Assembly (NCBI GenBank): GCA_902592965.1
Contig: CACJGL010000001.1
Span: 1-64,000, forward strand
Length of the DNA stretch: 64,000 bases
Reading direction: 5' to 3'
Source of the DNA: an uncultured Pelagibacteraceae bacterium
GTDB lineage: Bacteria; Pseudomonadota; Alphaproteobacteria; Pelagibacterales; Pelagibacteraceae
Shown: in pieces, positions 13,274 through 51,976 of the stretch
How positions within the stretch are numbered: position 1 is the first letter of the stretch
Layout: every line of letters starts with the position of its first letter
The notes under the pieces: generated by a model
The model's input: only the letters and a program-made list of their open reading frames with translations
Databases searched by the model: none
What the model was told of the DNA's origin: nothing
Translations under genes and position numbers: made by a program

Positions 13274-13287
13274 ATTAAATATTCAAC

Positions 13288-18476: not shown

Positions 18477-18485
18477 TTTATTGAC

Positions 18486-20017: not shown

Positions 20018-20026
20018 ATTGTAGTT

Positions 20027-21646: not shown

Positions 21647-21694
21647 TAATTTTATATAATTAAAAAGTTAAAACATACCATCAAAGTTTTTTTT

Positions 21695-22825: not shown

Positions 22826-22885
22826 TGAGTTTTTTTAATTACAAACCTTTTAATCACTTTAATTTTAAAATTGATCATAAATATT

Positions 22886-24574: not shown

Positions 24575-24636
24575 TTTTTAATTTTAATTGGTTAAATTTT
24601 TTAAAATAATTTTTAAATATATCTTTAACATAAATT

Positions 24637-26466: not shown

Positions 26467-26515
26467 AATCAATTTCTATTCAAAGTTAAAATTAAAAAAA
26501 AATTTATAAATCAGT

Positions 26516-28484: not shown

Positions 28485-28496
28485 ATTTAATTTTGT

Positions 28497-29331: not shown

Positions 29332-29360
29332 AATATAAAGTTCAATTATTGAACAGTAAA
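29332..29360 (-). promoter_or_regulatory. sigma70-like promoter with GTTCAATTATTGAAC dyad (29340..29354) in its spacer
   Basis: Minus strand: TTTACT-GTTCAATAATTGAACTT-TATATT, 17-bp spacer, upstream of ATG at 29321. Confidence 0.8.
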
Positions 29361-32081: not shown

Positions 32082-32082
32082 T

Positions 32083-34010: not shown

Positions 34011-34016
34011 ATTAAA

Positions 34017-35870
34017 TTAATTAAAGTTTGATTTAATTATCTCTTTAGACTCTGGTAAACTTGTTGCTCCAAAACAATTAAAAAAAAGTTTGTCATAACT
34101 TTTTTTGTTTATCATATTTAAATAATATAAGTTAACTAATTCAATAGCTTTTTTTTCATTATTTGTAAAAATATTTTCATAATCTTTAAAATAAGAATTA
34201 GGGTATTGATTGTTTAAATCGCAAAATAAAAGGTTTTTTTTCTTAAAAATAGAATAAATTAATGGACTAGAAAAAGGCATGGCAATTGTTAAGTCTGATT
34301 TTTCTATAATTAAATTATTAGGATATATATTTTCTACAACGATAAAATTTTTTTTATCATATATTTTTTTTGCCAAAATTTTAATTTCATTTTCTAGTGA
34401 ATAATAAGTTTCAAATTTTTTTTTGCTTTTGAAGTATATTATATACCTTTTATCATTTAATAATTTTTCAGCTAACTTTAAAAACTTGTAATGAGTATCT
34501 AGACTATTGCAGCTTGTATAAGAATTATATGATGAATTAAACATCAGTATTTTGAATTTTGAATTATCAAATATGTCATCACGAATTTTTTTATTTTTCG
34601 ATAGAAAAGCGGGTCCTGAAACAATAAATTTTTTTGAAATGGAATGATTTTGCTTACTCATCATAAGACTTTGTAAAGTTTGGTGATGTTCAATATCATA
34701 ATTAAAAAAGGCCATTTTTGTATTATTATAATTCTCAATAATCTTACTGTTAAAAATATTTTCTGAATTAGTAGCTTTATAATGTATTGTTTTAAATTTA
34801 TGTTTATTAAATATAATATTTCTAAAATAATGAGTGAATTGATAGTTGTGATAAGAAATATAATTTTCGATCTTATAGTTATTGCAAAAGTTGTTCCAAA
34901 TAAAATAATTTGTGTAACCTTCAAAAAAGAAATCAAATATTAGTATTTCCCTTTTTAAAATTAATTGTAAATTTATAAAAAAAGATTTAAAAAATATAAT
35001 CAAATTATTACAAATTAATTTTAAATTAATATTTGTCTGCTGTTTGAGATTAGAGTTGCAAAAATCATAATTTGAATTCTGCAGCCCCTGGAATTTTTCG
35101 TAGTTATTTTTTTTAAGATTGTCTTCCAATACAAATAAACTTTGATTTATCAATTTTTTGTCATCTTCTATAATCCAGTCTAAACTACCATTTTTATCAA
35201 AAGTAAATCCATTGGAATAAATTCTAAATGCAACTTTATATTTTTTTTTTTGAATGTTAAATTTGAACTTATTACAAATGAAAGATGCATATATTGGATA
35301 TAGAATTAAAATTAAAAATTTTTTAAGCGAAAAGCTCTTCTCTCTTATTGGGAAAATTAAATTTGTTACTTTTGATTTTTCTTTATCAAATTCTTTAAGT
35401 AAACAATTTCTTTCATTAAAAATATAACAAGATAAATTTTTGTTAAATTTTAACAACACTTTTATTATGATTTTTAAATCATAATAATCCTGACTTAAAT
35501 CAACAAGGTACTTTTTAAATGCATATTCAATTTTTTGATCACTATATAATTTTGATAGAAAATTTATATAAATCGAATTTTTTTTAAAAAAATAATTATA
35601 AATATTATTACTTTCTTTAAATGATTTTTTGTGTGATAGCCACATCAAGTAAATATTTTTGTTGAAATTTTGCCACGAAAATATTTTGTAATTTATTTTT
35701 TTTTCTTTAAGGTATTTTATATCTGCATCATTTAAATTAAGCTGCCTAAAAATTAATATCTTATTTTCTAAGTTTTTTTCAGAAATAAATTTTTTTGAGG
35801 TTTTATTAAGACAATCTATAATATATACTTCATCGTACTTACTTAATTGATTTAAATTTTCATTAAACAT
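34017..35870 (-). CDS. Hypothetical surface-polysaccharide protein (GT-B-like C-terminus)
   Basis: Intact 617 aa ORF; NLIIEKSDLTIAMPFSSPLIYSIFKKKNLLFCDLN near C-terminus; polysaccharide operon context. Confidence 0.5.
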   Translation of the reverse strand: MFNENLNQLSKYDEVYIIDCLNKTSKKFISEKNLENKILIFRQLNLNDADIKYLKEKKINYKIFSWQNFNKNIYLMWLSHKKSFKESNNIYNYFFKKNSIYINFLSKLYSDQKIEYAFKKYLVDLSQDYYDLKIIIKVLLKFNKNLSCYIFNERNCLLKEFDKEKSKVTNLIFPIREKSFSLKKFLILILYPIYASFICNKFKFNIQKKKYKVAFRIYSNGFTFDKNGSLDWIIEDDKKLINQSLFVLEDNLKKNNYEKFQGLQNSNYDFCNSNLKQQTNINLKLICNNLIIFFKSFFINLQLILKREILIFDFFFEGYTNYFIWNNFCNNYKIENYISYHNYQFTHYFRNIIFNKHKFKTIHYKATNSENIFNSKIIENYNNTKMAFFNYDIEHHQTLQSLMMSKQNHSISKKFIVSGPAFLSKNKKIRDDIFDNSKFKILMFNSSYNSYTSCNSLDTHYKFLKLAEKLLNDKRYIIYFKSKKKFETYYSLENEIKILAKKIYDKKNFIVVENIYPNNLIIEKSDLTIAMPFSSPLIYSIFKKKNLLFCDLNNQYPNSYFKDYENIFTNNEKKAIELVNLYYLNMINKKSYDKLFFNCFGATSLPESKEIIKSNFN

Positions 35871-35895
35871 AATTAGTTATTAAATTATGAAAAAA

Positions 35896-36909
35896 TTAAT
35901 TTTTGATAATTTTATCCATTATAATTTGTGTTTTAAAAGCTTGAGAAAAATCTGCTCCTAAGAATTTCTTTTTATTATCTGAGTTTTTTACTATATGTTG
36001 CAAATATTTAACAAGGGCAGTTCTCCAAGGATTCACTCCAATTATTTTTTCCGATCTCAAACTATCTTTAACACTTATATTTTTTGATCTTCCACTAGAA
36101 TTTTGAAATATGAGTTTATCAAAGTTATTGAGCTTTAAAGTTCCTTTCTCACCATTGGCAATAATATTTAGGCCACTATCAACACTTGAAATACAAGAAC
36201 AATTAATATTTCCAAGAGATCCATTTTTGAACTCACATATCATTGAAAAAAAACTTTCTACATTTTTTTTCCACAAAAATTTTTTATTACCATTATTTTT
36301 CAAAAAATTTCCTTTAAATGAATGAACCTTATTTATTTCACCATTTAGGAAAAATAGTAAATCAATCATATGTGATCCAAGAGCTAGCACTTGTCCTCCA
36401 CCACTTTTTTTATTGAACCACCAATTTTTAGTTTTTTTTTCATCAATCATGTTGGTATGATGCTCAATTGTTATGTAATTTATTTTACCTAAAAAGTTAT
36501 CTTTAATTAATTTTCTCATTTTTAAGATATTTGGATGAAATCTTAATTGATGATTAACGAATGCAAATCTATTTTTATTTTTTACGTATCTAAGCATAAT
36601 TTTAGCATCTTTTAAATTACCTGATAGTGGCTTTTCACAAAACACATTCTTATTGTGCTTAATAGATTGAATCAAAAATTTTTTATGAGTGTACGGCGGT
36701 GTTTCGATAAAAATTAAATTAATTTCTTTATCATTAAAAATTTTTTTATAATCATTAGTTACATATTTTAAATTTTCTTTATTTTTAATTTTTTTAGGAT
36801 TTCTACAGTAAATATATTTTACCTCCATTTTATCAACAAATTCTACACATGGTAGAACTACTCTTTCTCCAAATCCTGCGCCTAAAATCCCTACTATAAA
36901 ATTCTTCAT
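35896..36909 (-). CDS. Gfo/Idh/MocA-family oxidoreductase
   Basis: VGILGAGFGERVVLPCVEFV, FCEKPLSGNLKDAKIML, HQLRFHPN, GGGQVLALGSHMIDLLFFL. Confidence 0.88.
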   Translation of the reverse strand: MKNFIVGILGAGFGERVVLPCVEFVDKMEVKYIYCRNPKKIKNKENLKYVTNDYKKIFNDKEINLIFIETPPYTHKKFLIQSIKHNKNVFCEKPLSGNLKDAKIMLRYVKNKNRFAFVNHQLRFHPNILKMRKLIKDNFLGKINYITIEHHTNMIDEKKTKNWWFNKKSGGGQVLALGSHMIDLLFFLNGEINKVHSFKGNFLKNNGNKKFLWKKNVESFFSMICEFKNGSLGNINCSCISSVDSGLNIIANGEKGTLKLNNFDKLIFQNSSGRSKNISVKDSLRSEKIIGVNPWRTALVKYLQHIVKNSDNKKKFLGADFSQAFKTQIIMDKIIKN

Positions 36910-37622
36910 TTCAATTTTTTATTTTTTAATAAAATTTCTGCTAATAATAAATCTCTTTTTGTATCAATGTTAACTGAGTTATTATCATCCATTATATATG
37001 CCAGACTATCTTGCGTACCATATCTTTTGCCTTTTAATATCATATCCCTTCTGCAAGCGTATATAGATCCATTACGTATGTATGCCACAGGTCTTAAATC
37101 TTGCCTTTCCCCCTCTGGTATTTCTATAAGAGTTTTATTAAAATTTCTAATTTTACCATTTACCAATTTTTTTATTCTTAAAGGGTGATGATCTTCCAAC
37201 TTCACAACTCCAATAACGCTGTCAGCCTTTGTTTTTATAATTTTTTTTAAAACGTTATCAATATCCTTATAAGTTTTAAGAGGATTTGTTGCCATGAGTT
37301 CAACAATAAAATCATATTTTTTTCCTTCATCTTTTTCAGCCCACTTTAAAGCATGAAGATCAGCTTTTGCTGCTGAAGCTTTGTCTCCAGATAGATTCTT
37401 TGGCCTTAAAAATGGGGCTTCTGCTCCATACTTTTTTGCAATATTTTGTATTTCTTTATCGTCTGTAGAAACTAGGTATCTTGTAATTAGTTTACTTTTT
37501 TTTGCCTCTTTGATTGTGTAATACAATAAAGGTTTTTTATTAATCTTGTAAATATTTTTTTTTCTAATTGATTTTGAGCCTCCCCTGGCTAAAGTAATTG
37601 CAAGAATTCTATGTTTTTTCAT
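36906..37622 (-). CDS. Acylneuraminate cytidylyltransferase family (NeuA-like)
   Basis: RILAITLARGGSKSIRKKNIYKINKKPLLYYTIKEAKKSKLI, FIVELMATNPLKTYKDID. Confidence 0.88.
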   Translation of the reverse strand: MKKHRILAITLARGGSKSIRKKNIYKINKKPLLYYTIKEAKKSKLITRYLVSTDDKEIQNIAKKYGAEAPFLRPKNLSGDKASAAKADLHALKWAEKDEGKKYDFIVELMATNPLKTYKDIDNVLKKIIKTKADSVIGVVKLEDHHPLRIKKLVNGKIRNFNKTLIEIPEGERQDLRPVAYIRNGSIYACRRDMILKGKRYGTQDSLAYIMDDNNSVNIDTKRDLLLAEILLKNKKLK

Positions 37623-37629
37623 CTGGGAA

Positions 37630-38682
37630 CTAAAAAGAAAAATTTAATTTTTGTTTTTTAAAAAATTGATTTAAATTATTAACGGTAATTTTGTCTAACA
37701 GTATTCCTTTTTTATTAAATATTCTTCTATTCTCTCTTTCAAATTCGCCTGGGACTAGAATTTTTTTAAATCCCTTTTGAAGTCTTGAGCTTTTTACGTG
37801 TTTGTAAAGATCATTTAAATTTTTTTTAAATATCTTTATCGATGTAAAAGGCCGAATTTTTATTGCTATAAAAGTTACTGCATTGCCATGCTGATTTTTT
37901 TTGTTACTTGAGCATCCAGCTTTTGAAAGAGCTCCTCCCAACACGTCAACCGCTAAAGCTAAAGCATAACCTTTATGACCCGCTAAACCACCAAGAGGTA
38001 GAATGGAGGCCTTTGGGTCAAAATATAAATCTTTAGGATTTTGTGTTATTTTTCCAAAATAATTTAACAAAAAACCTTTTTGCATTTTTTTTTTCAAAAA
38101 ATGATTAATTTTTACTTTTCCTTCTGCTATTGAGCTTGTAGATAAATCCATTTCAAATAAATCTTTATTTGGTCCAGGTGTTGAAATAGCAATAGGGTTC
38201 GTCGGAAGTTTTCTATCTATGCCGCCAAAAGGAGACACAATGTGACTTGTTCCATGTAAATTTGAAAAAGCGATACATACCAAGTTTTTTTTTGCAGCTT
38301 GATTGGTAAAGTCTGCAAGTCTTCCTACATGATTAGCTTTTTTCAAAGTTACGCAGGAAACATTATTTTTTAATGCTTTTTTAATACACAGTTTAATTGC
38401 ATAATCTGCTGCTAATTGACCAAAACCCCAATTACCATCGAGAGAAGCGGTGGTTGCCGTTTGGGAAATGATTTTTGTTTTTGCGTTAACTTTTAAATTA
38501 CCTTTTTCTAACTTGTCTAAATATATTGGAACTCTTGTTACACCATGAGAACCTTGTCCTGATAAGTCAGCATTTATTAAAAGAGAGGAGACTCTATTAG
38601 AATTTTTTTTTGTTAGTCCATAACTATATAGTAAATTACTTAGTGCCTTAAATAGTTTTTTTGTATTAACTCTTTTTAGCAT
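37630..38682 (-). CDS. Ldh-family (malate/lactate/ureidoglycolate dehydrogenase type) oxidoreductase
   Basis: ADLSGQGSHGVTRVPIYLDKLEKG, HVGRLADFTNQAAKKNLVCIAFSNLHG, GLAGHKGYALALAVDVLGGALS. Confidence 0.88.
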   Translation of the reverse strand: MLKRVNTKKLFKALSNLLYSYGLTKKNSNRVSSLLINADLSGQGSHGVTRVPIYLDKLEKGNLKVNAKTKIISQTATTASLDGNWGFGQLAADYAIKLCIKKALKNNVSCVTLKKANHVGRLADFTNQAAKKNLVCIAFSNLHGTSHIVSPFGGIDRKLPTNPIAISTPGPNKDLFEMDLSTSSIAEGKVKINHFLKKKMQKGFLLNYFGKITQNPKDLYFDPKASILPLGGLAGHKGYALALAVDVLGGALSKAGCSSNKKNQHGNAVTFIAIKIRPFTSIKIFKKNLNDLYKHVKSSRLQKGFKKILVPGEFERENRRIFNKKGILLDKITVNNLNQFFKKQKLNFSF

Positions 38683-38694
38683 TACTTAAATGAA

Positions 38695-39372
38695 TTAACC
38701 AATACCTTTCCAAGTGTTACCTTTTTCAGTATAATGATGATCTGCCTCCATGTCTGGATCATAAAGGAATGACAATCCTTTTTTAACAACATCATTAGCC
38801 CAATATCTATCTTCTTTACCTGGCAGATGTTCATCGAATGGATTTTTAGAAAGATATTTTCTGTTATACATAGCAATACTGTTGTGAATAAAGTATCTTT
38901 TTTCCATTTCAGAATACATATTTATAACTCTTTTATTTATAAAATGAGACCAGATATATCTTTTTGTAATCTTCTTACCATTCCATATGGGAATATTATT
39001 GCCAAAAACACAAACATATTTTTTTAAATCTTGGATATGTTTTTTCAAATTTAATTTTTTTAAGACACAATGAGCGGAAATTATCATTAAATGAGGATTT
39101 GAGGATTTTTTTACACCCATGTTAAGTGCCTTACCGGGTGTATAATTATCAATTTTAATAATTTTAATTTTAGTGTACTGCTTATTTTTTTTATCATTTA
39201 ATAGAGGGTCTTGGGTGAAATGACGGACTATATTTTCTGTTTCATCTGTTGAGTTATTGTCAACAATGATTATTTCAGGTTTATAAATAAAATCTAAAAC
39301 TGATTGTATGGTATGTCCAATCCATCTATCTTCATTTCTTGACCTGATTATTACTGAAATTTTATCACTCAT
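38695..39372 (-). CDS. Glycosyltransferase family 2
   Basis: ISVIIRSRNEDRWIGHTIQSVLDFIYKPEIIIVDNNSTDET. Confidence 0.88.
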   Translation of the reverse strand: MSDKISVIIRSRNEDRWIGHTIQSVLDFIYKPEIIIVDNNSTDETENIVRHFTQDPLLNDKKNKQYTKIKIIKIDNYTPGKALNMGVKKSSNPHLMIISAHCVLKKLNLKKHIQDLKKYVCVFGNNIPIWNGKKITKRYIWSHFINKRVINMYSEMEKRYFIHNSIAMYNRKYLSKNPFDEHLPGKEDRYWANDVVKKGLSFLYDPDMEADHHYTEKGNTWKGIG

Positions 39373-40168
39373 TACTTGTCCACCTTCCTCTATAATTCAA
39401 AACTACATCTTCTTCACATTTTTGAAAATCTAAACCCCTGTCTTTTTGCATCTTTAATAAATTGTCTCTAAAGTCGCACAATCTCTTAAGCTCATTTGGT
39501 GATAATGCAAACTTATTATCTCTACCTGGTAAATCTTTGTTTGTGGTAAAATGCTTTTCTATTACCTCCGCTCCTTGTGATAAAGCCATCAATGCATCAT
39601 CTATTCCAGCAAAATGACCACTATATCCAACATGCTTAAAGTGTTCTTTAAGTTTTTGTAGTTTCGGCATATTAACGTTATCTGGACTACATGGGTAAGA
39701 AGAAACACAATGCATTATAATAAATTTTTCACTGTTATTCAGGCTTTTCAATTTTAGAACCTCATCCCATTTTGAGGCTCCCGTAGATAAAATAACTTTA
39801 TCAAATTTTGCTAAACACTTTTGAATTAAATCTAGGTTTGCCACTTCTTGGCTAGCAATTTTTATTAATTCGGGATTTATTTCATGCATGATATTTATTC
39901 CATCATCATCAAAAACTGATGAGAGAAATTTAGTTTTTTTACTATTACAATAATCCTTTAAGATGTAATGTTTTTCTTTGGTTAGCTCAGCTTTCTTATA
40001 TATTTCTCTTCTGTCATCGTTATCCCAAGATCCTTTGCCTAATTTTTTTTCTGACCAAGTTTGAAATTTGCAAATATCTGCTCCTGATTCTACGGCACTA
40101 TCTATCATCTCTTTGGCAAGGTCCATGTCTCCCATATGGTTCCAGCCGATTTCTGCAATAATTATCAT
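39365..40168 (-). CDS. NeuB-family synthase, catalytic domain only
   Basis: IIIAEIGWNHMGDMDLAKEMIDSAVESGADICKFQTW, YSGHFAGIDDALMALSQGAEVIEKHFTTNKDLPGRDNKFALSP; ends shortly after NYRGRW. Confidence 0.88.
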   Translation of the reverse strand: MIIIAEIGWNHMGDMDLAKEMIDSAVESGADICKFQTWSEKKLGKGSWDNDDRREIYKKAELTKEKHYILKDYCNSKKTKFLSSVFDDDGINIMHEINPELIKIASQEVANLDLIQKCLAKFDKVILSTGASKWDEVLKLKSLNNSEKFIIMHCVSSYPCSPDNVNMPKLQKLKEHFKHVGYSGHFAGIDDALMALSQGAEVIEKHFTTNKDLPGRDNKFALSPNELKRLCDFRDNLLKMQKDRGLDFQKCEEDVVLNYRGRWTSNE

Positions 40169-41163
40169 TTTTTATCTTCTTTAAATGATTTAGCAAACTC
40201 AACATATTTTTTCATACCTTTTTCAAGGTTAAAATATGGTTTATAATTCAACAACTTTTTTGCTTTGCTTATAGACAACGTGCCTCTTTTGGGTCTTTGA
40301 TGATCTCTTTCTTTAAATATGTAATTTAATCTTGGGAAATACTTCGATAAAATTTTAACATATTGATATAGTGTCATTGCTTTTCCAAAAGTAATATTGA
40401 AAGTTTGATTTATTGCTTTTTTGCTAAGAGCTGCAAGAATTGCTCCATTGGCCAAATCTTCAACAAAAGTAAAATCTAATTTTTCATCTTTGCCATTTAT
40501 TGCTAAAGTCTCTCCTTTAATTGCTTTTTCTAAAAAAATTTGAGTGACTCTTTGATTCATATCTGTTGGTCCATAGACAGCAGATGGTCTAATTATGGTA
40601 TAAGGAATATTGTAAAAATTACATAAACCTTTTGTTATCGCCTCACCTGCTAGTTTCATTGTACCATATATTTCTTTTGGATTTGTTTCATCTGTTTCAT
40701 ACGCTTTTTTTTTCTTGAAATCTCCATAAACCATACTTGACGAGAAATAAACAAATCTTTTAAATTTACTTTTTTTTATAGATTGAAAATAATTTAAACA
40801 TTCTAAAATGTTTGTAGTAGTATCTACTGATCCGATCCTACATTCTTGACCAGTAATATTTTCTAATTTTGCCACAGGAACAGCAGAAGCATGAAAAATT
40901 ATCGACGGCTTATATTTTTCTAGAATTCGCAAAACTAATTTGAAATTACTAGCATCCCCCCTTTCAATGATAATTCTTTTATCTTTATCAAATCTAAATT
41001 TTCTGTAATCATTAAAATAATCTTTAAGCGGGTTTATAAAACCTGTGTACGAATCTATCAGAATACACTTTGATGCTAGGTTTTTTTTAAGAATTATTTT
41101 TGCTAAGTTAGAACCTATAAAACCAAGACCGCCTGTAATTAAGATGTTATTTTTTTTTAACAT
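40165..41163 (-). CDS. NAD-dependent epimerase/dehydratase
   Basis: ILITGGLGFIGSNLAKIIL, YGTMKLAGEA, IRPSAVYGPTDMNQRV. Confidence 0.88.
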   Translation of the reverse strand: MLKKNNILITGGLGFIGSNLAKIILKKNLASKCILIDSYTGFINPLKDYFNDYRKFRFDKDKRIIIERGDASNFKLVLRILEKYKPSIIFHASAVPVAKLENITGQECRIGSVDTTTNILECLNYFQSIKKSKFKRFVYFSSSMVYGDFKKKKAYETDETNPKEIYGTMKLAGEAITKGLCNFYNIPYTIIRPSAVYGPTDMNQRVTQIFLEKAIKGETLAINGKDEKLDFTFVEDLANGAILAALSKKAINQTFNITFGKAMTLYQYVKILSKYFPRLNYIFKERDHQRPKRGTLSISKAKKLLNYKPYFNLEKGMKKYVEFAKSFKEDKK

Positions 41164-42271
41164 TTTCTATATACCAATTTTCAATGTTTTTAAGAATCCA
41201 ATTTATCTCTCTTTTATTCAAATTTGGATGCATTGGAAGTGTAATAATTTCTTTAGCTAAAAGTTCTGTGTTAGGTAAATTTATTGAATATCTGTTTAGA
41301 TACTTTTGCAAATGAAGGGGGGGATCAAAGTGAGCTGAAGCTTCAATATTTTTCTTTTTTAAATAATATAACAAATTGTTCCTATATTTTTTAACACATT
41401 GAAATGAGTACATTTGGTAAGAATGAGTAAGATTTTTTTTTACTTTTTGCGTTAAAAAAATTCCAGAGAATTTTGATAAAAAAGTATCGTAAATTCTTGC
41501 TATTTTACGCCTTTTGTTATTTAATTTATTTATCCTTTTCAATTGAGATATTCCAAGAGCTGCTAAATGATTTGGTAATCTAAAATTATGTCCTGGTAAG
41601 TCTGATTCTCTATTCCAATAAAATTTTTTTTTATCTTTATTAATTCCATGTGCTATTAATTTTTTTATCTCCTCATATCTTTTTTTATTATTTGTAGTGA
41701 GCATTCCTCCCTCTGTAGTAGTAATATTTTTAGTTGGGAAAAAAGAAAAACAACCAAGTCCAAATGATCCTGTGTATCTTTTATTCCATGTGGCTCCGAG
41801 TGTTTCAGCACTATCCTCTATTAATTCTATTTTATTTTTTTTACAAATTTTAACTATGTTTCCCATTTCACAAGGGAGTCCACTATAATGGACCACAATT
41901 ACTGCAATTGTTTTTTTTGTTATTCTCTTTTTAATAAATTCGGCTGTGATATTTCTTGAATTTATATCAACATCAGCAAAAACGGGTTTATTCCCAGTAT
42001 TTAAAACAGCATTCGCAGTTGAAACCCAAGTCCAACTTGGAATTATTACTTCCCCCCTTTTTTTTATTATTTTTAACGCACATTCCAATGCACTTGTACA
42101 AGAGTTCATTGAAATTGCATACTTTGATTTAACAAGAGAACAAAAATTTTTTTCAAATTCTAAGTTTTTCGGTCCATGTGTAAGCCATCCAGATTTAAGA
42201 CTTTTTAACATGACGCTATAATCTTTTGGACTAAAATCTGGTTTTGAAAAGTGAATTTTTTTCATATTCAA
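41147..42271 (-). CDS. DegT/DnrJ/EryC1/StrS aminotransferase
   Basis: SCTSALECALKII, EDSAETLGATW, PLP-lysine SFFPTKNITTTEGGML. Confidence 0.9.
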   Translation of the reverse strand: MNMKKIHFSKPDFSPKDYSVMLKSLKSGWLTHGPKNLEFEKNFCSLVKSKYAISMNSCTSALECALKIIKKRGEVIIPSWTWVSTANAVLNTGNKPVFADVDINSRNITAEFIKKRITKKTIAVIVVHYSGLPCEMGNIVKICKKNKIELIEDSAETLGATWNKRYTGSFGLGCFSFFPTKNITTTEGGMLTTNNKKRYEEIKKLIAHGINKDKKKFYWNRESDLPGHNFRLPNHLAALGISQLKRINKLNNKRRKIARIYDTFLSKFSGIFLTQKVKKNLTHSYQMYSFQCVKKYRNNLLYYLKKKNIEASAHFDPPLHLQKYLNRYSINLPNTELLAKEIITLPMHPNLNKREINWILKNIENWYIENVKKK

Positions 42272-43080
42272 TTTATCTTATTATAAAAATCATAATTTAA
42301 TTTTAGATCACCAAAAACTCTTATAACATCACCATTCGTATCATCGCTTATTTTAGATTTTTTCCAAGTTTCGCAATATCTGTTTTCGGGAAATAAATTA
42401 TTAAAAAAATTTCTTGTAAAATAATAAGTGTGAGTTGACTTAATTTTTTTTTTTGTTTGAATAAAGCAATTTGGTACTTCAAAAAAAAATTTTGTTTCTT
42501 TGTGTGAAATTTGACTAAATTTTTCAAAAGTTTTTTTTATTGACCTCACATGTTCCAAAGAATGACTAGCATAGATTAAATCAAACTTTTCATTTACCAT
42601 ATTAATATCCGTTATATTTTCAATATTCTCATAATTTAAAATATCTTGATTAATAAAATAGTCTATGTTTGTAACTTTATGATCATTTATAGCGCATAAA
42701 ATTGAAAAGCCCGCATGCCCTGATCCAAAATTTAAAATGTTAATTTTTGTTTTATCAAATTTACTAAATAGTTTTTTTGTTAAATCATAATGTTCCAGAT
42801 CCCTTTTTCTTATTGGTAGTTCCTTAAGTTTAAAATCTTCTCCAACATTAGATGAGTAATATTCGGAGAAGAAACCTTCTTTAGGCATTGGATCCACTCT
42901 ACTATAAGTTTCATAGTGCATAAGATTTAAATTTTTAAAATATTTATCCATTTTTTCCAGTTTTATATTTAAATTTATTTTTTTACTTTTTTCCTCGGGT
43001 AATAATTTAAAAATGTTTAAAATTCTTAAAAGCTTATTATAAATTATTAATTGTAAGTTTAAAATTTTATTGAAACTCAT
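42268..43080 (-). CDS. Class I SAM methyltransferase
   Basis: INILNFGSGHAGFSILCAINDHKVTNIDYF...FDLIYASHSLEHVRSIKKTFEKFSQISHKETKFFFEVPN. Confidence 0.8.
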   Translation of the reverse strand: MSFNKILNLQLIIYNKLLRILNIFKLLPEEKSKKINLNIKLEKMDKYFKNLNLMHYETYSRVDPMPKEGFFSEYYSSNVGEDFKLKELPIRKRDLEHYDLTKKLFSKFDKTKINILNFGSGHAGFSILCAINDHKVTNIDYFINQDILNYENIENITDINMVNEKFDLIYASHSLEHVRSIKKTFEKFSQISHKETKFFFEVPNCFIQTKKKIKSTHTYYFTRNFFNNLFPENRYCETWKKSKISDDTNGDVIRVFGDLKLNYDFYNKIN

Positions 43081-43090
43081 ATCTTAAAAT

Positions 43091-43393
43091 TTATTTTTTT
43101 TGTTCAATTTCTTTTTTTAACTCTTCATATTCTTCCATTTTTCTTTTCATAAAATTTAAAGTGAGTTTTGTTTTTTCTGATATACCTTTAGGAGTTAATA
43201 TATATAAATAATTCATTTTTTTTGGATTTTTTTTAAAATTTTTAATTTTAATAAGACCTTTTTGTTGCAATGATTTTAAACAATAATTTAGTTTTCCTAA
43301 ACTAAAATTTAATTCTTTAGCAAGCTCTCTTTGAGAAAACTCTGGTTTGTTTCTCAATTTTCTTAATACGTGTAAATTATCCTCTTCATTCAT
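43091..43393 (-). CDS. MarR-type winged-HTH regulator (EPS-associated MarR family-like)
   Basis: LHVLRKLRNKPEFSQRELAKELNFSLGKLNYCLKSLQQKGLIKIKNFKKNPKKMNYLYILTPKGISEKTKLTLNFMKRKMEEYEEL; small wHTH with C-terminal coiled helix. Confidence 0.85.
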   Translation of the reverse strand: MNEEDNLHVLRKLRNKPEFSQRELAKELNFSLGKLNYCLKSLQQKGLIKIKNFKKNPKKMNYLYILTPKGISEKTKLTLNFMKRKMEEYEELKKEIEQKK

Positions 43394-43401
43394 AATACTT
43401 T

Positions 43402-43430
43402 ATTATATCGTTCAACTATTGAACAGTAAA
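43402..43430 (-). promoter_or_regulatory. sigma70-like promoter with GTTCAACTATTGAAC dyad (43410..43424) in its spacer, upstream of the MarR-like gene
   Basis: Minus strand: TTTACT-GTTCAATAGTTGAACGA-TATAAT, 17-bp spacer, upstream of ATG at 43393. Confidence 0.82.
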
Positions 43431-43495: not shown

Positions 43496-44023
43496 TTAGA
43501 TATCAATATATTTAAGGATTTGCTTAAACTTTTTTACAGTAAAATCTGGTTTTCTATTTATTTTTTCATTGTAGTTGTTGTCAATTAGGATTGTTTTGCA
43601 ATTTGAATTATAACCAGCATTAATATCTCTCCACCTGTCCCCTACAACGAAACTTTTTTTTAAATCCAATTTAAATTTATTTTTTAATTCAATTATCATA
43701 CCTGGATTTGGCTTTCTAAAAAAATTTTTATCGTCATCAGAATAACATACTGCAACTTTATCTAACAAGAGTTTTCTTTTTAAATAAGAGTTAATATTTT
43801 CAACATTAATTTTCGAATTAAGTTTTCTTGAGACGTCTGGTTGATTTGTAATTAAAAATAATAAATATTTTTTTTTAAGCATAGCACAAACTTCAACTAC
43901 ATCCTTTTTAATATAAATTTGACACAATTTTTGAAATGACTGTGGTTTGAAACCTTTGTATTTAGGTATATCAATTAATGTACCATCTCTATCAAAAAAA
44001 ATAGCTTTATTGTTATTAATCAT
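43496..44023 (-). CDS. HAD-IIIA phosphatase (GmhB-like)
   Basis: KAIFFDRDGTLIDIPKY, LLFLITNQPDVSR, FVVGDRWRDINAGYNSNCKTILI. Confidence 0.85.
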   Translation of the reverse strand: MINNNKAIFFDRDGTLIDIPKYKGFKPQSFQKLCQIYIKKDVVEVCAMLKKKYLLFLITNQPDVSRKLNSKINVENINSYLKRKLLLDKVAVCYSDDDKNFFRKPNPGMIIELKNKFKLDLKKSFVVGDRWRDINAGYNSNCKTILIDNNYNEKINRKPDFTVKKFKQILKYIDI

Positions 44024-44035
44024 TTTACTTTAAAA

Positions 44036-45562
44036 TTAATTATTTCTTAAAGAGTCTATATAATATTTAACAGTTTTTAGTATTTGATTGATTTTGGGGT
44101 ATCCAGAATTTCCTAAAATATTGACTGCTAAAGCACCAGATATTTGGGAAATTAATAATTGGAGAAATAAATTGTTTGTTGTTTTTGATAAAATACTAGA
44201 CATGCAATGAAAAATATCACCCGCTCCAACAGAGTCTATTGCATTATTATTTAATGTTGGGATTTTGTAAGAATTTTTTTTGTCCAATGCTAATGAAAAT
44301 TTACCGCCACATGTTAAAAAACAGTGATCAGACTTTAAAATTCTAAATAGTTTTTTTAATTCTGACAAATGATTCAGGTTTCTTTTTGAAGCAAACAACT
44401 CCAATTCTTTTTCGTCTAAGGTAAACATGTTAACTTTTGAGTATTTTTTATCAATTATATTAAAACCATAATTAAGACTATTTGTTTGAACATTAATTGA
44501 TAAGAATTTCGATTTATTTTGTATAAGATTTCTGATTTTATTTGAAAAAATATTATGGCCAAAATCTTGAACAATGACTATATCATATTTTGGAAGTAAA
44601 ATATTAAGTTTTTTTATTATTACACTCTCATCTTTTATAGATAAAGATTTATTTTCAAAATCATTTATTGTTATTATTTTTTTAATTCTCTTATCAACTT
44701 CTTTCTCTACAACTCTCTTTTTTATAATTTTATTATAGTATTTTGATACTATTGGTTTTGAATTATTCGTAAAAAGTTTTTTGATTTTTTTATCATTGAG
44801 AAGATTATTATTAATTATAGATACTAATTTAACATTTTTAATAAAAGATGAGAGAAAATTATATGATGCTAATGCACCCCCTGGCATTGTATATTCCTCA
44901 TTTACTGTACAAGATAATGTATTTGATTTTGGTGAGATCCCTTTGGTACTTACGAATAAATATTTGTCTATTATTGTTTCGCCTATAATAAGAACCTTTA
45001 ATTTTTCAAATTTTTTAAATAAATTTTCAATTTCATTAAAATTAATATTGCTCAAATTTGATTTGATTACATTATCGTTAATACCAAATAGTTCCTCTGA
45101 AATGAGTTTTGATGAACTTTGGATATTATTTCCCAGAAACTTTATTTTTCCACCAGTAGATTTTAGAACCTTTTTTTCTTTTTCTAGATTTCCTATACTG
45201 TCTGAATCTTTATACTCTTTGCCTTTACAATAAAAATGGGGTTTAAAAGTTTTTATTGCTACAGATGCATCATAACTATTTATTTTAAATGCATAATCAA
45301 TAATTTTAATTTGCTCTAAATATTTTAATCTAACATTTTCATTAAAATAAGGACTATGGAGATTTTTCTTCATAAAATTATCCCCTGTAATTGTCACTAT
45401 TAGTATATCTCCTAATGATTTTGCTTTTTTTAAATGGTCAAGATGTCCAGGATGAACTAAATCAAATGCTCCGTGGCATAGGACTATTTTTTTTCCCTTT
45501 TTTCTTTTTTCAGAAATAATTTTTAATCTAGATTTTAAATCTGGAGTAATTTTTTTATTCAT
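44036..45562 (-). CDS. Fused nucleotidyltransferase (N-term) and PfkB-type carbohydrate kinase (C-term); HldE-like with inverted domain order
   Basis: N-term IVLCHGAFDLVHPGHLDHLKKAKSLGDILIVTITGD; C-term PGGALASYNFLSSFI...NNNAIDSVGAGDIFHCMSSIL. Confidence 0.88.
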   Translation of the reverse strand: MNKKITPDLKSRLKIISEKRKKGKKIVLCHGAFDLVHPGHLDHLKKAKSLGDILIVTITGDNFMKKNLHSPYFNENVRLKYLEQIKIIDYAFKINSYDASVAIKTFKPHFYCKGKEYKDSDSIGNLEKEKKVLKSTGGKIKFLGNNIQSSSKLISEELFGINDNVIKSNLSNINFNEIENLFKKFEKLKVLIIGETIIDKYLFVSTKGISPKSNTLSCTVNEEYTMPGGALASYNFLSSFIKNVKLVSIINNNLLNDKKIKKLFTNNSKPIVSKYYNKIIKKRVVEKEVDKRIKKIITINDFENKSLSIKDESVIIKKLNILLPKYDIVIVQDFGHNIFSNKIRNLIQNKSKFLSINVQTNSLNYGFNIIDKKYSKVNMFTLDEKELELFASKRNLNHLSELKKLFRILKSDHCFLTCGGKFSLALDKKNSYKIPTLNNNAIDSVGAGDIFHCMSSILSKTTNNLFLQLLISQISGALAVNILGNSGYPKINQILKTVKYYIDSLRNN

Positions 45563-46641
45563 ATTTTATTTAAAAGATCATAGTAAACTTTATTTGAAAA
45601 TGAAAAAAATTTATACTGATTATTAGATTGCCAAGTATATTTTTTAGGATTGAGAGGAAAAAAATTAATAGCAAAGTCATAAAAGAAAGTGTAATGTAAA
45701 TATGGAACTTTACTAAAAATTGCAAATTCACTTATACCACCTCCAGTATACTGAATGTTAAGGTGAGAATTTAAAATCAAGTTTCCATCATCAATATAAG
45801 TTTTACTGTAATTTTTAGAAAATTTTAAATCCAATTTTTTTTTTTTACTAAATTTTTTTAACAAACTGCAACCATTATTATCTGAAATAATTAATATCTT
45901 GTAATTTAAAAATCTTTTCTTGATGATTCTAATGGATTTTAAAAAATTTTGGTAATCTATATTTCTTATCTGAGAGTAAGGTTTGGGATATAATCTAACA
46001 GAAAAAGTTACATATTTGGAGTTTTTGAAATCTTTTTGAAATTTTTTATTATTTATTTTTTTTTTTTTAAATATAAATTTATTAACAAATGCATCTTTTT
46101 CATTTTTAATTTTTTTATTTAAAAAAAAAGTAGATAAAAAATAAGTTGGTTTTCTCATTAAAGTATCAGCTTTAAATAAAATATTAAAATTATTCTTTTT
46201 ACGATATTCATCAAATTGTTTCCATTTTATTAATTTTAGATTTTTAGTATTTCCAAATACAAACCTATAGATATTTGTCAAAACTTTTAAATGGCTGATA
46301 ATTCCATTTTTATCTTTTAATCTTTTCCAGCCACCTCGATACTCACCAATTATAATTATAAAAATAACATTTCTTTTTTTAATTTTATAATATTTTGCAA
46401 TCATCAAATATCTGAAAAAATCTCCGTATGTTGGTGGTGAAACTTTACAATCATATGTTAAGATTAGATTTTTACCTTTTGAAAAAAAAAAGGAGTAATA
46501 ATTTTTAATATAAATTTTATAAAAAATTTTAAAAAAATTAAAAATTTGCCATATTATCGAGTGTCTTGGGGCAATTTGGTAAACTATGTTAAGTGGGAAA
46601 AAAACTAAATATTCAACTTTTGATAAGAAGTTTATTATCAT
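45559..46641 (-). CDS. Hypothetical, possibly glycosyltransferase-like
   Basis: Intact 360 aa ORF with 4-nt overlap to neighbour; NIQYTGGGISEFAIFSKVPYLHY. Confidence 0.5.
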   Translation of the reverse strand: MIINFLSKVEYLVFFPLNIVYQIAPRHSIIWQIFNFFKIFYKIYIKNYYSFFFSKGKNLILTYDCKVSPPTYGDFFRYLMIAKYYKIKKRNVIFIIIIGEYRGGWKRLKDKNGIISHLKVLTNIYRFVFGNTKNLKLIKWKQFDEYRKKNNFNILFKADTLMRKPTYFLSTFFLNKKIKNEKDAFVNKFIFKKKKINNKKFQKDFKNSKYVTFSVRLYPKPYSQIRNIDYQNFLKSIRIIKKRFLNYKILIISDNNGCSLLKKFSKKKKLDLKFSKNYSKTYIDDGNLILNSHLNIQYTGGGISEFAIFSKVPYLHYTFFYDFAINFFPLNPKKYTWQSNNQYKFFSFSNKVYYDLLNKI

Positions 46642-47585
46642 TTTTTCAATTTCTTAGAAAGAAATTTGGTCCTATAAGATTGTTCAGAGTTATTGAGTTT
46701 TTTATTTTTATATTTTTCAAAAATATCAGAAATTGCGTCTTCAACTTTAAATTTGTGCTTAAATCCTTTAGTTAAAATTTTTTTTGAAAAAAGCCTATAA
46801 GATCTAACATCAAACTCCTTTTTTATGTATATTTTTGGAAATCTTAATTTTTTTTTTATTATTTTGGCTACTTTAAGTATTGAGTAATTTTCAAAACCTA
46901 TATTATATGTTCCTTGTAATTTCTCATTTTTTAGAAAAAAGAGAAATGCATTTAACATATCTTTAATATGTACTTGTGGCCTTATTTGCTTTCCACCATT
47001 TACTGTAATGATTTTTTTTGTTATCGCTGAATAAGTCATTGCATTGACTGTTAAATCTAATCTCATAGAATCAGAAACACCACAAATTGTTCCGGGTCTT
47101 AAGATCACCGTACTAAAAAAATCTTTATAATTATTTACTATTTTCTCACCTACCATTTTAGTTTTATTATAATCTGATAGTGGTACTAGTTCTGTGTTTT
47201 CATCCACTTTTTTTTTCTTACTAACTCCATAAACACTTCCAGATGAAACAAAAATAAATTGTTTGATTTTGCTTAATTTACAAATGTCTAACAATTTTAA
47301 TGTTGATAAAACATTTGTCTCCCAAGTTATTTTTGAATTAAGTAAGGCAGCAGGATCATTGGAAATGGCAGCTAAATGAATAACCTTCTTAAAACCCTTT
47401 AAATCTTTCGAATTTATATTATCAATATCTTTTTTTATTACTTTAATATTTTTATTTTTTTTTCCAAATTTATTATTGAAATAACCTATATCTAAAATTT
47501 TTACTTTATAACCGTTTTTAACCAAAAATTTTGATAGTTCGGTCCCAAGATATCCAAGTCCTCCTGTAATTAAAACTTTATCCAC
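46638..47585 (-). CDS. NAD-dependent epimerase/dehydratase
   Basis: VLITGGLGYLGTELSKFLVKNGYKVKILD, VSSGSVYG, YNKTKMVGEKI, LRPGTICG. Confidence 0.87.
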   Translation of the reverse strand: MDKVLITGGLGYLGTELSKFLVKNGYKVKILDIGYFNNKFGKKNKNIKVIKKDIDNINSKDLKGFKKVIHLAAISNDPAALLNSKITWETNVLSTLKLLDICKLSKIKQFIFVSSGSVYGVSKKKKVDENTELVPLSDYNKTKMVGEKIVNNYKDFFSTVILRPGTICGVSDSMRLDLTVNAMTYSAITKKIITVNGGKQIRPQVHIKDMLNAFLFFLKNEKLQGTYNIGFENYSILKVAKIIKKKLRFPKIYIKKEFDVRSYRLFSKKILTKGFKHKFKVEDAISDIFEKYKNKKLNNSEQSYRTKFLSKKLKK

Positions 47586-48438
47586 TTTTTTTATTAAAAT
47601 AATTAGGGTTATTGATATATCTTTTTTTTCTTCTCATTCGCCAATTATAAACACTTTCTTCAATATTGAGATCACTACCTATAAGTTCAAATAGTTTTTT
47701 ATTTTTATATGATTTTTTTTTAAGCATTTTTGAATAATTGAGTTGTGGTTTTACAAATGGCAAAGTAAACATATTTACTATCAAGTTCCTATCTTTACTG
47801 GTCAAATTTTCGCCTGCCCTATGATACAACATTGCATCTAAAAATATTACATCACCTTTTTTTGCAATCAATTGTTTAGTATTTTTGAGATTAACTTTGT
47901 TTGGTAAATGCTCAACTTTATGAGATTTGGGCACCACAAAAGTAGCTCCATTTTGTTTTGTAAAATCATCTAAACAAACCAATACATTCATGGCTATTGG
48001 TTTAGAGCTAACAAAAGTTTGAAACGGCAAATCACGATGCCAAGCACTTCCAAAATGAGCTGAGTAAGCTCTATTGATTGGAGCATTTTGAAGATTTATA
48101 ATATATCGGCCCTCAAAACATTCTTTTAACATACTTTTTATTTTTGAATTAAATAAAAATTTTTTAAAATAATCGTCATAACAAAAAAGGGCTCTAACTA
48201 CATTATTATCGTCTATAATTTTTAAATTTTTTTCCCCTCCAAATTCTTTAATTTGCTTTTTATAAATTATATCGATTTTTGATTTGGCAACATCGCAGTC
48301 TCTAGAATTAAAAATATTTTTTAAAATTAAAAAACCAGATTTTTTTAATTGATATAATTTATTATTTTTATATTTAGAGGAAACTTTATCCTTTGTATAG
48401 TTTCCATAACTATACAGCTTAGAACTTATTTTTTTCAT
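47578..48438 (-). CDS. Phytanoyl-CoA dioxygenase family (paralogue of 60983..61834)
   Basis: SAWHRDLPFQTFVSSKPIAMNVLVCLDDFTKQNGATFVVPKSHK...KGDVIFLDAMLYHRAG. Confidence 0.85.
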   Translation of the reverse strand: MKKISSKLYSYGNYTKDKVSSKYKNNKLYQLKKSGFLILKNIFNSRDCDVAKSKIDIIYKKQIKEFGGEKNLKIIDDNNVVRALFCYDDYFKKFLFNSKIKSMLKECFEGRYIINLQNAPINRAYSAHFGSAWHRDLPFQTFVSSKPIAMNVLVCLDDFTKQNGATFVVPKSHKVEHLPNKVNLKNTKQLIAKKGDVIFLDAMLYHRAGENLTSKDRNLIVNMFTLPFVKPQLNYSKMLKKKSYKNKKLFELIGSDLNIEESVYNWRMRRKKRYINNPNYFNKKSG

Positions 48439-49607
48439 TTTTTGTAATTTAAAAAAAATTTTTTTATCAACTTTGAAGTATATGCAATTTGCTCTTTTGT
48501 TATAAATTCATGAACAGGCAATGAAACAGTGGAATTAGCAATCTTTTCAGCCATCGGAAAATCTCCTCTTTTATACTTTAAAAATTTCGAAGCTGGTTGT
48601 AGATGTACTGGTATTGGATAGTGAATCTTGGCATCAATTAAATTTTTGTTTAAGTATTTAATCAATTTGTCCCTGCTGTGTTTAACGTTTAAATGATATA
48701 AGTGAAAAACTTCTTTTATATTTTTATTTCTTTTTACAGTTATAATCTCGCTTATTTCTCCCAAATATTTGTCAAATAGGTGAGCATTTTGAATTCGTTT
48801 TTTTGTAATATTAGTTAATTTTGTTTTAAGTTTATAATTTGCTACACATGCTTGTATGGTATCTAGTCTAGAATTATAACCAAACATTTTACATTTATTT
48901 CTATTTTCTAGTCCGTGGTTTCTTAGCAAAAAAAGTTTTTTTGCTAATGATTTATTGTTTGTTAATATGAAACCCCCGTCACCCCAAACATTAAAATTTT
49001 TTAATGGATGTAAGCTAAATGTACATGCATCTCCAAACGAAACTATTTGTTTCCCATAATATCTTGAGTCAATTGCATGGCAGCTGTCTTGAACGATTTT
49101 GAGATTATATTTTTTTGCAATTTTTCTTATAGTATTCATTTCGCAAGGTCTCCCTGCCCAATGAACTGGCATTATAGCCTTTGTCTTTTTTGTAATTTTT
49201 GAAATTATTTTATTTTCATCAATATTATAATCTTCTTTTATATCAACAAATACAGGTTTAGCTCCTGCAGTCACAATGGAACCGACTGTAGCAATAAAAG
49301 TATATGGCGTTGTTATAACTTCATCTCCCCTTCCTATACCAAGCGCTTTTAAAACTAAGTATAATGCATCAGTACCATTGCCAACACTAATAGCAAATTT
49401 TGAACCCATTCTTTTTGATAAATCTTTTTCAAAATTAATAACTTCATTTCCCAAAGTGTAATCGCCATACTTTACAACGTTTGCAATTTTTGAAAAAATT
49501 TTTTTATAATCTGAAAACTGTTCAACTAGATAACTATGGTTGATATTATATTTTTTATTTTTTGCGTACTGTTTAGGTAAAAAGTTTATTTTAGTATTGT
49601 TTTTCAT
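48435..49607 (-). CDS. DegT/DnrJ/EryC1/StrS aminotransferase
   Basis: VGNGTDALYLVLKALGIGRGDEVITTPYTFIAT, QDSCHAID, FSLHPLKNFNVWGDGGFILTN. Confidence 0.9.
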   Translation of the reverse strand: MKNNTKINFLPKQYAKNKKYNINHSYLVEQFSDYKKIFSKIANVVKYGDYTLGNEVINFEKDLSKRMGSKFAISVGNGTDALYLVLKALGIGRGDEVITTPYTFIATVGSIVTAGAKPVFVDIKEDYNIDENKIISKITKKTKAIMPVHWAGRPCEMNTIRKIAKKYNLKIVQDSCHAIDSRYYGKQIVSFGDACTFSLHPLKNFNVWGDGGFILTNNKSLAKKLFLLRNHGLENRNKCKMFGYNSRLDTIQACVANYKLKTKLTNITKKRIQNAHLFDKYLGEISEIITVKRNKNIKEVFHLYHLNVKHSRDKLIKYLNKNLIDAKIHYPIPVHLQPASKFLKYKRGDFPMAEKIANSTVSLPVHEFITKEQIAYTSKLIKKFFLNYKK

Positions 49608-50578
49608 TATATTTTATAGTTAAGTTTTTTATTTTTAAAGTAATTATAATTTTTTTCATAAAATAGTATTGTTTCCTTAAGGCCATCGTGTAGAGTTGTA
49701 TGAGTAGTCCATTTTAATTTTTTTTTTGTAAACGAACTATCTAATTTGTAAATCTCATCCTTTCCCACTCTATCTTTTGCTTTTTTTATTAAATAATTAT
49801 AATTTTTATTTAACATCTTACATATGATTTTAATTATGTATTTTATAGATACAAATTTGTCTCCAGAAAAATGATAAATTTCACCTATTTTGCCATTTTT
49901 TATTACTTTTAAAATAGCTTCACAAAAATCCTCTGAAAAAATAAAGTTTCGTTTACTATTTCCTTTTCCTTGAAGAGGAAACTTGATGTTCTTTTTTATG
50001 GACATAATTATTTTAGGTATGAGCCTGTAGAGTTCTTGTCCGGGACCGTAAAAATTAGAAAATCTAGAGATTATTATAGGAAATTTTTTTGAATTAAACG
50101 CATTCCTAAAATTTAACTCTGTCATCAACTTGCTCACTGCATAAGGTGTGGATGGTAAAAAATTATTGTAATTTTCTTTTAATTTATTTTTTTTATTTCC
50201 AAAAACCTCCGGAGTAGAAACATAAATATATTTTTTTAAAAATCGCATTTTATTAAAATTTTTAATTATACTTAATCTTGACTCAACATTAATCTTGTAA
50301 TACCTCTGTTGGTAATTCCAACTTTCATTAACCATGCAAATTGATGCGTAATCTAATATTATTTCTGGTTTAACTTTAAAAATTAGCTTTAATAACTTCT
50401 TTTCATCTTTTAATAAATTAATTTTGTGAATTTTTATGTCCTTACCTTTATACAATAAATAATTAATTTTTTTTGTGGAATTATAAGTTCCTATAATTTT
50501 AAATTTTTGATTAAAAAGATAAGATGCAACACTCGCTCCTGAAAAACTAGAAATACCCAAAATTAATATTTTTTTCAT
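49607..50578 (-). CDS. NAD-dependent epimerase/dehydratase (SDR-e)
   Basis: ILILGISSFSGASVASYLF, YVSTPEVFGN, TPYAVSKLMTEL, SRFSNFYGPGQ. Confidence 0.85.
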   Translation of the reverse strand: MKKILILGISSFSGASVASYLFNQKFKIIGTYNSTKKINYLLYKGKDIKIHKINLLKDEKKLLKLIFKVKPEIILDYASICMVNESWNYQQRYYKINVESRLSIIKNFNKMRFLKKYIYVSTPEVFGNKKNKLKENYNNFLPSTPYAVSKLMTELNFRNAFNSKKFPIIISRFSNFYGPGQELYRLIPKIIMSIKKNIKFPLQGKGNSKRNFIFSEDFCEAILKVIKNGKIGEIYHFSGDKFVSIKYIIKIICKMLNKNYNYLIKKAKDRVGKDEIYKLDSSFTKKKLKWTTHTTLHDGLKETILFYEKNYNYFKNKKLNYKI

Positions 50579-50633: not shown

Positions 50634-50662
50634 TTGTTCAACAATTGAACAACTTATATAAT
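50634..50662. promoter_or_regulatory. Fourth dyad GTTCAACAATTGAAC (50636..50650) in a divergent intergenic region
   Basis: Perfect 19-bp palindrome ttGTTCAACAATTGAACaa; plus-strand TTGTTC-N17-TATAAT possible; lies between minus gene 50578 and plus gene 50731. Confidence 0.7.
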
Positions 50663-50730: not shown

Positions 50731-51459
50731 ATGGTAAAATTTAATTCCTATTCTAATCGTTTAATTACTAAACCTTGGGGTTATGAATATATAATATTTA
50801 AAAATCAAAAAAAACTCGCACTTATATTTCTTAAGATTTTAAAAAATAAACAAACTTCACTACACTGTCATCCAAATAAAAAAACTGGATTTATAATTCT
50901 TAGTGGAACTGCTAAAGTACAAATAGGAATATACAGAAAAAACTCAAAAGTTTATAAATCACAATCAATATTGGTTTTTAGACCGGGTCTGTTCCATTCT
51001 TTAAAATGCGTTTCTAACAAACCATTGATTGCTTTGGAAATAGAAACACCATTTAATACTAAAGATTTAATAAGATTTTCTGATAATTACGGTCGACAAT
51101 TAAAACCATACGAAGACTTAAACTTAACAAAAAAAATAAATTCAAAATTTATAAAGTTTAAAAAACCAAAACAAAATTCAGGGTATATTTATAAGTTGGA
51201 TAATATGCTTATAGAAGTTCGAAATCATAAAAATTATAAATATCTGTTTAAAAAAAATGAAAAATCAATTAGTGCTATTTTGGATGGTAGTATAGTATCT
51301 AACGATAATAAAAAAGTTATAACGCACGGAGAAATTGTAAAAACTAAAACTTTGGAAAAACTTTCTAAACAATTCAAAATTAAAAAAAATTTGACTGTAT
51401 TGAAAGTTATAAAAAATAAGGATAAAAAAAGAAGATACAAAGAGCTCCATTATGTATAA
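50731..51459 (+). CDS. Cupin-domain protein, mannose-6-phosphate isomerase type-II-like
   Basis: ITKPWGYEYIIFKN...SLHCHPNKKTGFIILSGTAKV...RPGLFHSLKC...LIALEIETPFNTKDLIRFSDNYGR. Confidence 0.75.
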   Translation: MVKFNSYSNRLITKPWGYEYIIFKNQKKLALIFLKILKNKQTSLHCHPNKKTGFIILSGTAKVQIGIYRKNSKVYKSQSILVFRPGLFHSLKCVSNKPLIALEIETPFNTKDLIRFSDNYGRQLKPYEDLNLTKKINSKFIKFKKPKQNSGYIYKLDNMLIEVRNHKNYKYLFKKNEKSISAILDGSIVSNDNKKVITHGEIVKTKTLEKLSKQFKIKKNLTVLKVIKNKDKKRRYKELHYV

Positions 51460-51976
51460 AAAAGCATTAATTATTACCTCTAAATTAGCCCAAGATCATG
51501 AATTTATATATCCATTTTATAGATTAAAAGAAGCAGGATATGAGGTTTCGACTTTTAATAATGAGACAAAACAAGTTTTAGGTTATTTTGGAACCAAGAT
51601 ACCCCCAAAGGAAGAAGATAAAATAATAACAGCAGATGAAGTAATAGTTGATGAATACGAAACTTTAGTTTTACCAGGTGGTATAAAATCAATGGAGATT
51701 TTAAGATTAAACAAAGAAGTTTTAAAAATTATAAGAGATTTCAATGACAAAAAAAAATTTATCGCAGCTACATGTAGCGGTGTAATGCTTTTGATTTCAG
51801 CAAAAATTATAAAAAATAAAAATATATCTGGATATTATGCATGGAAAGATGACATCGAAAATGCTGGAGCAAAATTTGTTGATAGTCCTTGTGTTGTGGA
51901 TGAAAATTTAATTACTTCACCGCATTATAAGTATGTTGGAGAATGGATGAAGGGATTAATTAGTAAATTGAAATAG
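51452..51976 (+). CDS. DJ-1/PfpI family protein
   Basis: ADEVIVDEYETLVLPGGIKSMEILR...FIAATCSGVMLLISAKI. Confidence 0.85.
   Translation: MYKKALIITSKLAQDHEFIYPFYRLKEAGYEVSTFNNETKQVLGYFGTKIPPKEEDKIITADEVIVDEYETLVLPGGIKSMEILRLNKEVLKIIRDFNDKKKFIAATCSGVMLLISAKIIKNKNISGYYAWKDDIENAGAKFVDSPCVVDENLITSPHYKYVGEWMKGLISKLK

Follow-up and report, generated by a model that had tools for sequence, protein, structure and literature searches.

The window, a stretch of 64,000 nucleotides that we attribute to SAR11 because nearly every related locus bears the name Pelagibacteraceae, carries a gene for a small winged-helix protein of the MarR_EPS family. The spacer of its own predicted promoter, and those of the first promoters of two other runs of surface-glycan genes, hold the same inverted repeat, GTTCAA-N3-TTGAAC. 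We consider it about 85% probable that this regulator is a local, cassette-borne autorepressor blocking the promoters of a surface-glycan island. The family assignment, the dyads, their geometry and conservation, and their co-occurrence with the regulator are direct results of computation. Very likely the regulator and the dyad form a real and functional pair; binding of the dyad by the regulator is strongly supported by comparative genomics, and the sequence evidence is a strong indication that the protein acts as an on-off switch for its own gene and for its cluster. Autoregulation is likely, and so is regulatory control over at least three of the runs in the glycan locus; control of a fourth run is uncertain. 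Repression, and any 'master' control of the whole locus, we infer from promoter geometry.

The regulator and the dyads in the window

The regulator is encoded by an open reading frame with an ATG start at the head of a minus-strand run (Table 1), where the initial annotation had placed it. Its 100-residue product scored 133.7 bits with the NCBIfam model TIGR04176 (MarR_EPS; positions 2-98 of 105), the curated cut-off being 88 bits, in agreement with the earlier impression that it resembles the EPS-associated MarR proteins. It also matched PF01047 (29.2 bits; threshold 24.6), as a MarR-type winged-helix protein should. The AF2 monomer model (mean pLDDT 84.5) has a winged helix-turn-helix fold and a long C-terminal helix (68-99), with helix 32-44 lying where a recognition helix is expected. 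The best solved structures found with this model using Foldseek were MarR-family regulators such as HcaR, MexR and MepR (TM-scores about 0.65-0.70, by query length). When some 50 proteins of the window were scanned, several had no Pfam match and no second DNA-binding regulator was found, so this protein is still the sole evident regulator there. A search of viral contigs for relatives of the regulator found none.

The exact 12-letter dyad occurs four times in the window, and these are the only four copies in the 1,039,268-base assembly, which at 1.04 Mb is 79% complete and may lack further sites; the reversed control pattern has none. Relaxed searches gave no excess, with 10 dyads of up to two mismatches in the window against 6.7 expected, and 4 copies of the 10-letter core genome-wide against 4 for its control. 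The signal in the window resides in the exact dyads and their positions, and these counts and positions rule out a chance origin. The hexamers of the regulator promoter were found independently by a promoter scan (10 of 12 matches, 17 nt apart); chance alone would give 1.0 such site in the stretch scanned, so that by itself the scan is weak. The dyad begins immediately after the -35 hexamer and stops 2 nt short of the -10, so that the initial description of it as filling the promoter spacer is literally correct. The layout TTTACT, dyad, NN, TATAAT or TATATT is present at 43410, 17512 and 29340, with a background of 0.27% of positions upstream of minus-strand genes. On the plus strand, the dyad at 50636 starts 2 nt after the predicted -10 of a TTTACA-17-TATATT promoter (50606-50634). 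On the minus strand, it is upstream of a predicted -35, and the promoter scan did not place it within any predicted promoter of the run from 50578. The idea of a 'master switch' is partly supported, in that three of the four promoters have an identical, apparently blocked layout. The predicted -10 lies very near the ATG at 43393 and at 17496 (43394-43402 and 17497-17504), which would give leaderless or nearly leaderless transcripts.

Table 1. Predicted features of the glycan locus (coordinates are those of the window)
Feature	Position	Strand	Evidence
Run headed by cytidylyltransferase (ATG at 17496), with aminotransferase, SDRs, SIS, radical SAM; predicted target	8075..17496	-	ORFs, Pfam
Predicted operator dyad GTTCAATTATTGAAC	17512..17526	.	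Exact match; spacer of TTTACT/TATAAT, minus strand
Run with GT2-cytidylyltransferase fusion, NeuB, AsnB, ABC transporter; predicted target	17541..29321	-	ORFs, Pfam
Predicted operator dyad GTTCAATTATTGAAC	29340..29354	.	Exact match; spacer of TTTACT/TATATT, minus strand
Run headed by regulator, with DegT aminotransferase, SDR, NeuB, GT2, cytidylyltransferase; predicted autoregulated	31077..43393	-	ORFs, Pfam
Regulator gene, MarR_EPS (TIGR04176) winged-helix protein, 100 aa	43091..43393	-	NCBIfam score, AF2 model
Predicted regulator promoter: -35 TTTACT (43430-43425), 17-nt spacer with dyad, -10 TATAAT (43407-43402)	43402..43430	-	Promoter scan; geometry kept in alignment of 56 relatives
Predicted operator dyad GTTCAACTATTGAAC, regulator's own promoter	43410..43424	.	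Exact match; conserved upstream in 77/80 related loci
Run (genes 49607..43496: SDRs, DegT, PhyH, cytidylyltransferase-like/PfkB, HAD phosphatase) beside fourth dyad; possible target	43496..50578	-	Pfam
Predicted operator dyad GTTCAACAATTGAAC, between divergent genes	50636..50650	.	Exact match; promoter scan
Cupin gene and DJ-1/PfpI gene, divergent from the 50578 run; predicted target of fourth dyad	50731..51976	+	Pfam, promoter scan

Pfam matches identify the minus-strand runs that begin beside the dyads as carrying nonulosonic-acid and other surface-glycan genes, including two NeuB, several cytidylyltransferases, DegT aminotransferases, SDR epimerases/dehydratases, glycosyltransferases and an ABC transporter. 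The regulator is therefore surrounded by exopolysaccharide/surface-glycan genes (NeuB, cytidylyltransferases, DegT, SDR and GT2), as is characteristic of MarR_EPS, and homologues of these glycan genes lie within 6 kb of the regulator in 72 of the 80 related loci described below. At 4505-5864, a His_biosynth-family protein is encoded beside a class-I glutamine amidotransferase, resembling the HisF/HisH-like pairs of sugar amidation. At the far end of the window (61895-61975), an AdoCbl-II cobalamin riboswitch (95.1 bits) is found just upstream of a gene resembling TonB-dependent B12 receptors (62075-63943).

Conservation of the dyad and its co-occurrence with the regulator

Eighty related regulator loci, nearly all from SAR11, were compared. 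The core dyad, GTTCA-N5-TGAAC, was present no more than 120 bp upstream of the regulator in 77, and in 61 the match was exact. In one of the three others, L058, the letters are a run of N; in L064 and L072, the gene before the regulator has tandem dyads at its promoter. The latter two were rejected as counter-examples, since their dyads sit at the first promoter of the operon. All 13,312 dyads (five bases, spacer 0-12) were then counted upstream of the regulator with no motif assumed. GTTCA-N5-TGAAC ranked first, with 77/80 loci in SAR11 and 16/19 in distant Proteobacteria, and no locus of either group had this dyad at another spacing. Two of the SAR11-like regulator loci carry labels of Woesearchaeota (L083) and Neomarinimicrobiota (L107); at about 70% identity, these are probably binning errors.

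Outside SAR11, the N5 dyad was found within 250 bp in 48 of 63 proteobacterial loci and an N4 form in 2, other independent dyads being far lower; within 600 bp upstream, the numbers were 54 and 10, respectively, of 74 loci. Six of the loci that lacked it within 250 bp (L150, L153, L161, L170, L175 and L195) have the dyad farther upstream, in each case with an ops element in between, and no dyad site was seen in L204 or L044. The spacing in Rhodobacterales relatives is GTTCA-N4-TGAAC. When 11 named plasmid loci were held out as a test, 8 had an exact dyad and 3 had one with a single mismatch: the 8 exact sites are N4 sites of Rhodobacterales, 2 more Rhodobacterales have one-mismatch N4 sites, and Aliarcobacter has a one-mismatch N5 site. 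The Aliarcobacter locus (L222) is on a plasmid of A. butzleri; the neighbour of its MarR_EPS gene is predicted to be tet(H), and the displayed stretch contains no polysaccharide gene. Position 34, in the recognition helix, was considered as a determinant of spacing, as members with G, A or S lack the N5 form (0/6 versus 45/54, p = 1e-4). This idea was rejected because N5 is retained in members with W, L or R and the members with N4 belong to the Alphaproteobacteria, which confounds the association with phylogeny.

A tandem second dyad was identified in 56 of the 77 loci. It usually follows the first by 22-24 bp and most commonly ends 2-3 bp before the start codon. The regulator promoter of the window, with its single dyad, is unlike this usual pair. 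In the logo of the 56 tandem loci, CTTTACT is followed by the dyad and then, 17 nt from the -35, by a TATA-like -10. The 80 loci contain 22 further core dyads, none inside an ORF and all intergenic, which precede glycan genes such as those for NeuB, UDP-GlcNAc 2-epimerase, Polysacc_synt_2 and cytidylyltransferase.

Relatives of altered architecture also have the dyad. Proteins of about 700 residues (L047-L055 and L206) start with a MarR_EPS-like N-terminus, to which ATP-sulfurylase and APS kinase are joined in frame (Pfam on L053), an arrangement suggestive of an enzyme able to control its own gene. GTTCA-N4-TGAAC is found upstream of all 9 such fusions from one alphaproteobacterial family, and the N5 dyad is upstream of the L206 fusion, from the class of G202. 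Another set (L207-L213; about 210-240 residues, with a longer frame in L207) joins a related winged helix-turn-helix to an extra C-terminal part, which had no Pfam match in L211 and may be a sensor domain; 6 of these 7 have GTTCA-N5-TGAAC upstream.

Among 250 SAR11 genomes, an exact dyad was found in 34 of the 48 with the regulator and in 17 of the 202 without it (Fisher p = 2e-18, related genomes being treated as independent). This corresponds to 1.54 versus 0.10 exact dyads per genome, a difference of about 15 times, and the control pattern was not raised. In the regulator genomes, 55 of 64 listed dyads are on the same contig as the regulator and no more than 50 kb from it. The exact 12-letter dyad is missing from 14 of the 48, and the three of these that were inspected (G011, G012 and G025) have one-mismatch sites. 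The co-occurrence of motif and regulator, proposed as a check in the initial annotation, was therefore evident in and around SAR11, in the other proteobacterial loci, in the held-out plasmids and in the genome counts. The opposite case, dyads without a regulator, which had been named as evidence against the pairing, was largely explained among the cases inspected. Ten of 11 single dyads checked in regulator-free genomes are inside ORFs, but one, in G539 (62% complete), is intergenic. G028, with four dyads and counted as regulator-free in the Fisher test, was rejected as a counter-example because one of its dyads adjoins a regulator start cut by the contig end. The family-f2 dyads GTTCAAGATTTGAAC were also set aside; they are one conserved sequence with near-identical flanks in five genomes of a sister family (L013-L017), presumably coding and unrelated.

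Proposed mechanism and competing explanations

We propose that a dimer of the regulator would bind GTTCAA-N3-TTGAAC, with GTTCA-N5-TGAAC as its core. Since the dyad fills the space between -35 and -10 both in the promoter of the regulator and in those that open two other glycan runs, the bound dimer would physically block RNA polymerase at these sites. A dimer on the fourth dyad would cover the point at which transcription of the divergent cupin gene is predicted to start. In most relatives, the second dyad, about 23-24 bp downstream, would extend coverage up to the start codon and provide space for a second dimer. If a signal, perhaps a nucleotide-sugar or a glycan intermediate, released the dimer, the regulator and the runs would be switched on simultaneously, with autoregulation keeping the response in check. 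The earlier prediction of autoregulation appears well supported, given the dyad in the regulator's own promoter and its conservation upstream of the regulator in relatives.

The geometry could also be read as activation, with the regulator re-aligning the promoter hexamers from a dyad between -35 and -10, as MerR-type proteins do. The -35 sequence TTTACT falls short of the best consensus, and on the minus strand the 50636 dyad is in a classical activator position, just upstream of a predicted -35. However, MerR-type promoters have spacers lengthened to 19-20 nt, whereas the three window promoters and the logo have the optimal 17 nt. The second dyad reaching to the start codon in many relatives suits a roadblock, and MarR relatives are mostly repressors; we regard activation as unlikely. 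An RNA role for the repeat, as a leader hairpin controlling translation or termination, is the least probable reading. In tandem loci the downstream dyad is indeed transcribed and nearly reaches the start codon, but the first dyad lies in the promoter spacer, ahead of whatever is transcribed from there, the stem has just 5-6 pairs, and a scan of the dyad promoters found no terminator-like site.

Sequence co-occurrence by itself cannot name the binding protein, and a protein encoded elsewhere might bind the dyads while the regulator merely travels with the cluster. That this is so seems very improbable. The dyad tracks the MarR_EPS family across SAR11, Gammaproteobacteria, Rhodobacterales plasmids and the fused relatives, it is found at the regulator's own promoter, and it is scarce and mostly coding in regulator-free genomes; its spacing, N5 or N4, varies with the sublineage of the regulator. 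The LexA box of Alphaproteobacteria is a direct repeat, GTTC-N7-GTTC, with sites genome-wide at DNA-repair genes. LexA was rejected as an explanation of the window sites, since the dyad is an inverted repeat and all four exact copies are in one glycan locus. Repression by the regulator itself remains our preferred interpretation.

Known systems and the ops element outside SAR11

A local MarR-type autorepressor is a known kind of system. The window regulator shares with the classical autorepressors of the MarR, MexR, MepR and SlyA type a winged helix and a palindromic site at its own promoter; the overlap of this operator-like site with the promoter is seen in both its position and its conservation. 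It differs in its length of 100 residues (about 140 in the classical proteins), and in its single C-terminal helix, so that the typical dimer/ligand pocket may be missing or differently arranged. Its predicted regulon is a glycan island rather than drug efflux or catabolism. From MarR_EPS (TIGR04176) it differs in nothing of kind, being alike in score and in polysaccharide-gene setting. In the open-licence literature searched, no operator, autoregulation or regulon of MarR_EPS was found, and the family name occurred in one paper, reporting an up-regulated gene (PMC10599003). The window looks like one of the variable O-chain biosynthetic clusters of Pelagibacterales (PMC11898729), a paper whose main text makes no mention of regulator, promoter or transcription. 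SAR11 surface-glycan islands are among the most variable parts of very abundant genomes, and in the literature searched their regulation appears essentially unstudied. What the present analysis makes open to testing in vitro is a named protein together with an exact 15-bp site and four promoters. For a family annotated in many Proteobacteria, with no target described in the literature searched, the predicted operator is also a tool for finding regulons.

Like the window regulator, RfaH is associated with the front of long surface-polysaccharide operons; RfaH works on elongation, whereas the window regulator would work on initiation. No ops-like GCGGTAGC was found in the SAR11 window, which does not fit the pattern of an RfaH/ops-controlled operon. 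Outside SAR11, 22 of 74 loci have this ops core upstream of the regulator, compared with 2-3 for control words. The ops element recruits RfaH, and two plasmids encode an RfaH/NusG-family protein beside the regulator. In all 19 loci with both elements, the order is dyad, ops, regulator, a layout that would tie control of initiation to RfaH-dependent elongation. Neither the conservation of the dyad operator nor its serial layout with ops was found in the open-licence papers searched. With somewhat better than even confidence, we suggest that the dyad is the long-conserved operator of a whole uncharacterised regulator family, comprising single-domain MarR_EPS proteins, the winged-helix-sulfurylase-APS kinase fusion and the paralogues of about 220 residues. 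Glycan cassettes would then carry a self-limiting switch, and many of those outside SAR11 would couple it to RfaH/ops, gating initiation and elongation in series. Most of the Rhodobacterales plasmid loci (among L214-L221, L223 and L224) also have a common element, TGCGGTAGCC, about 25-40 bp before the regulator, which resembles the ops element.
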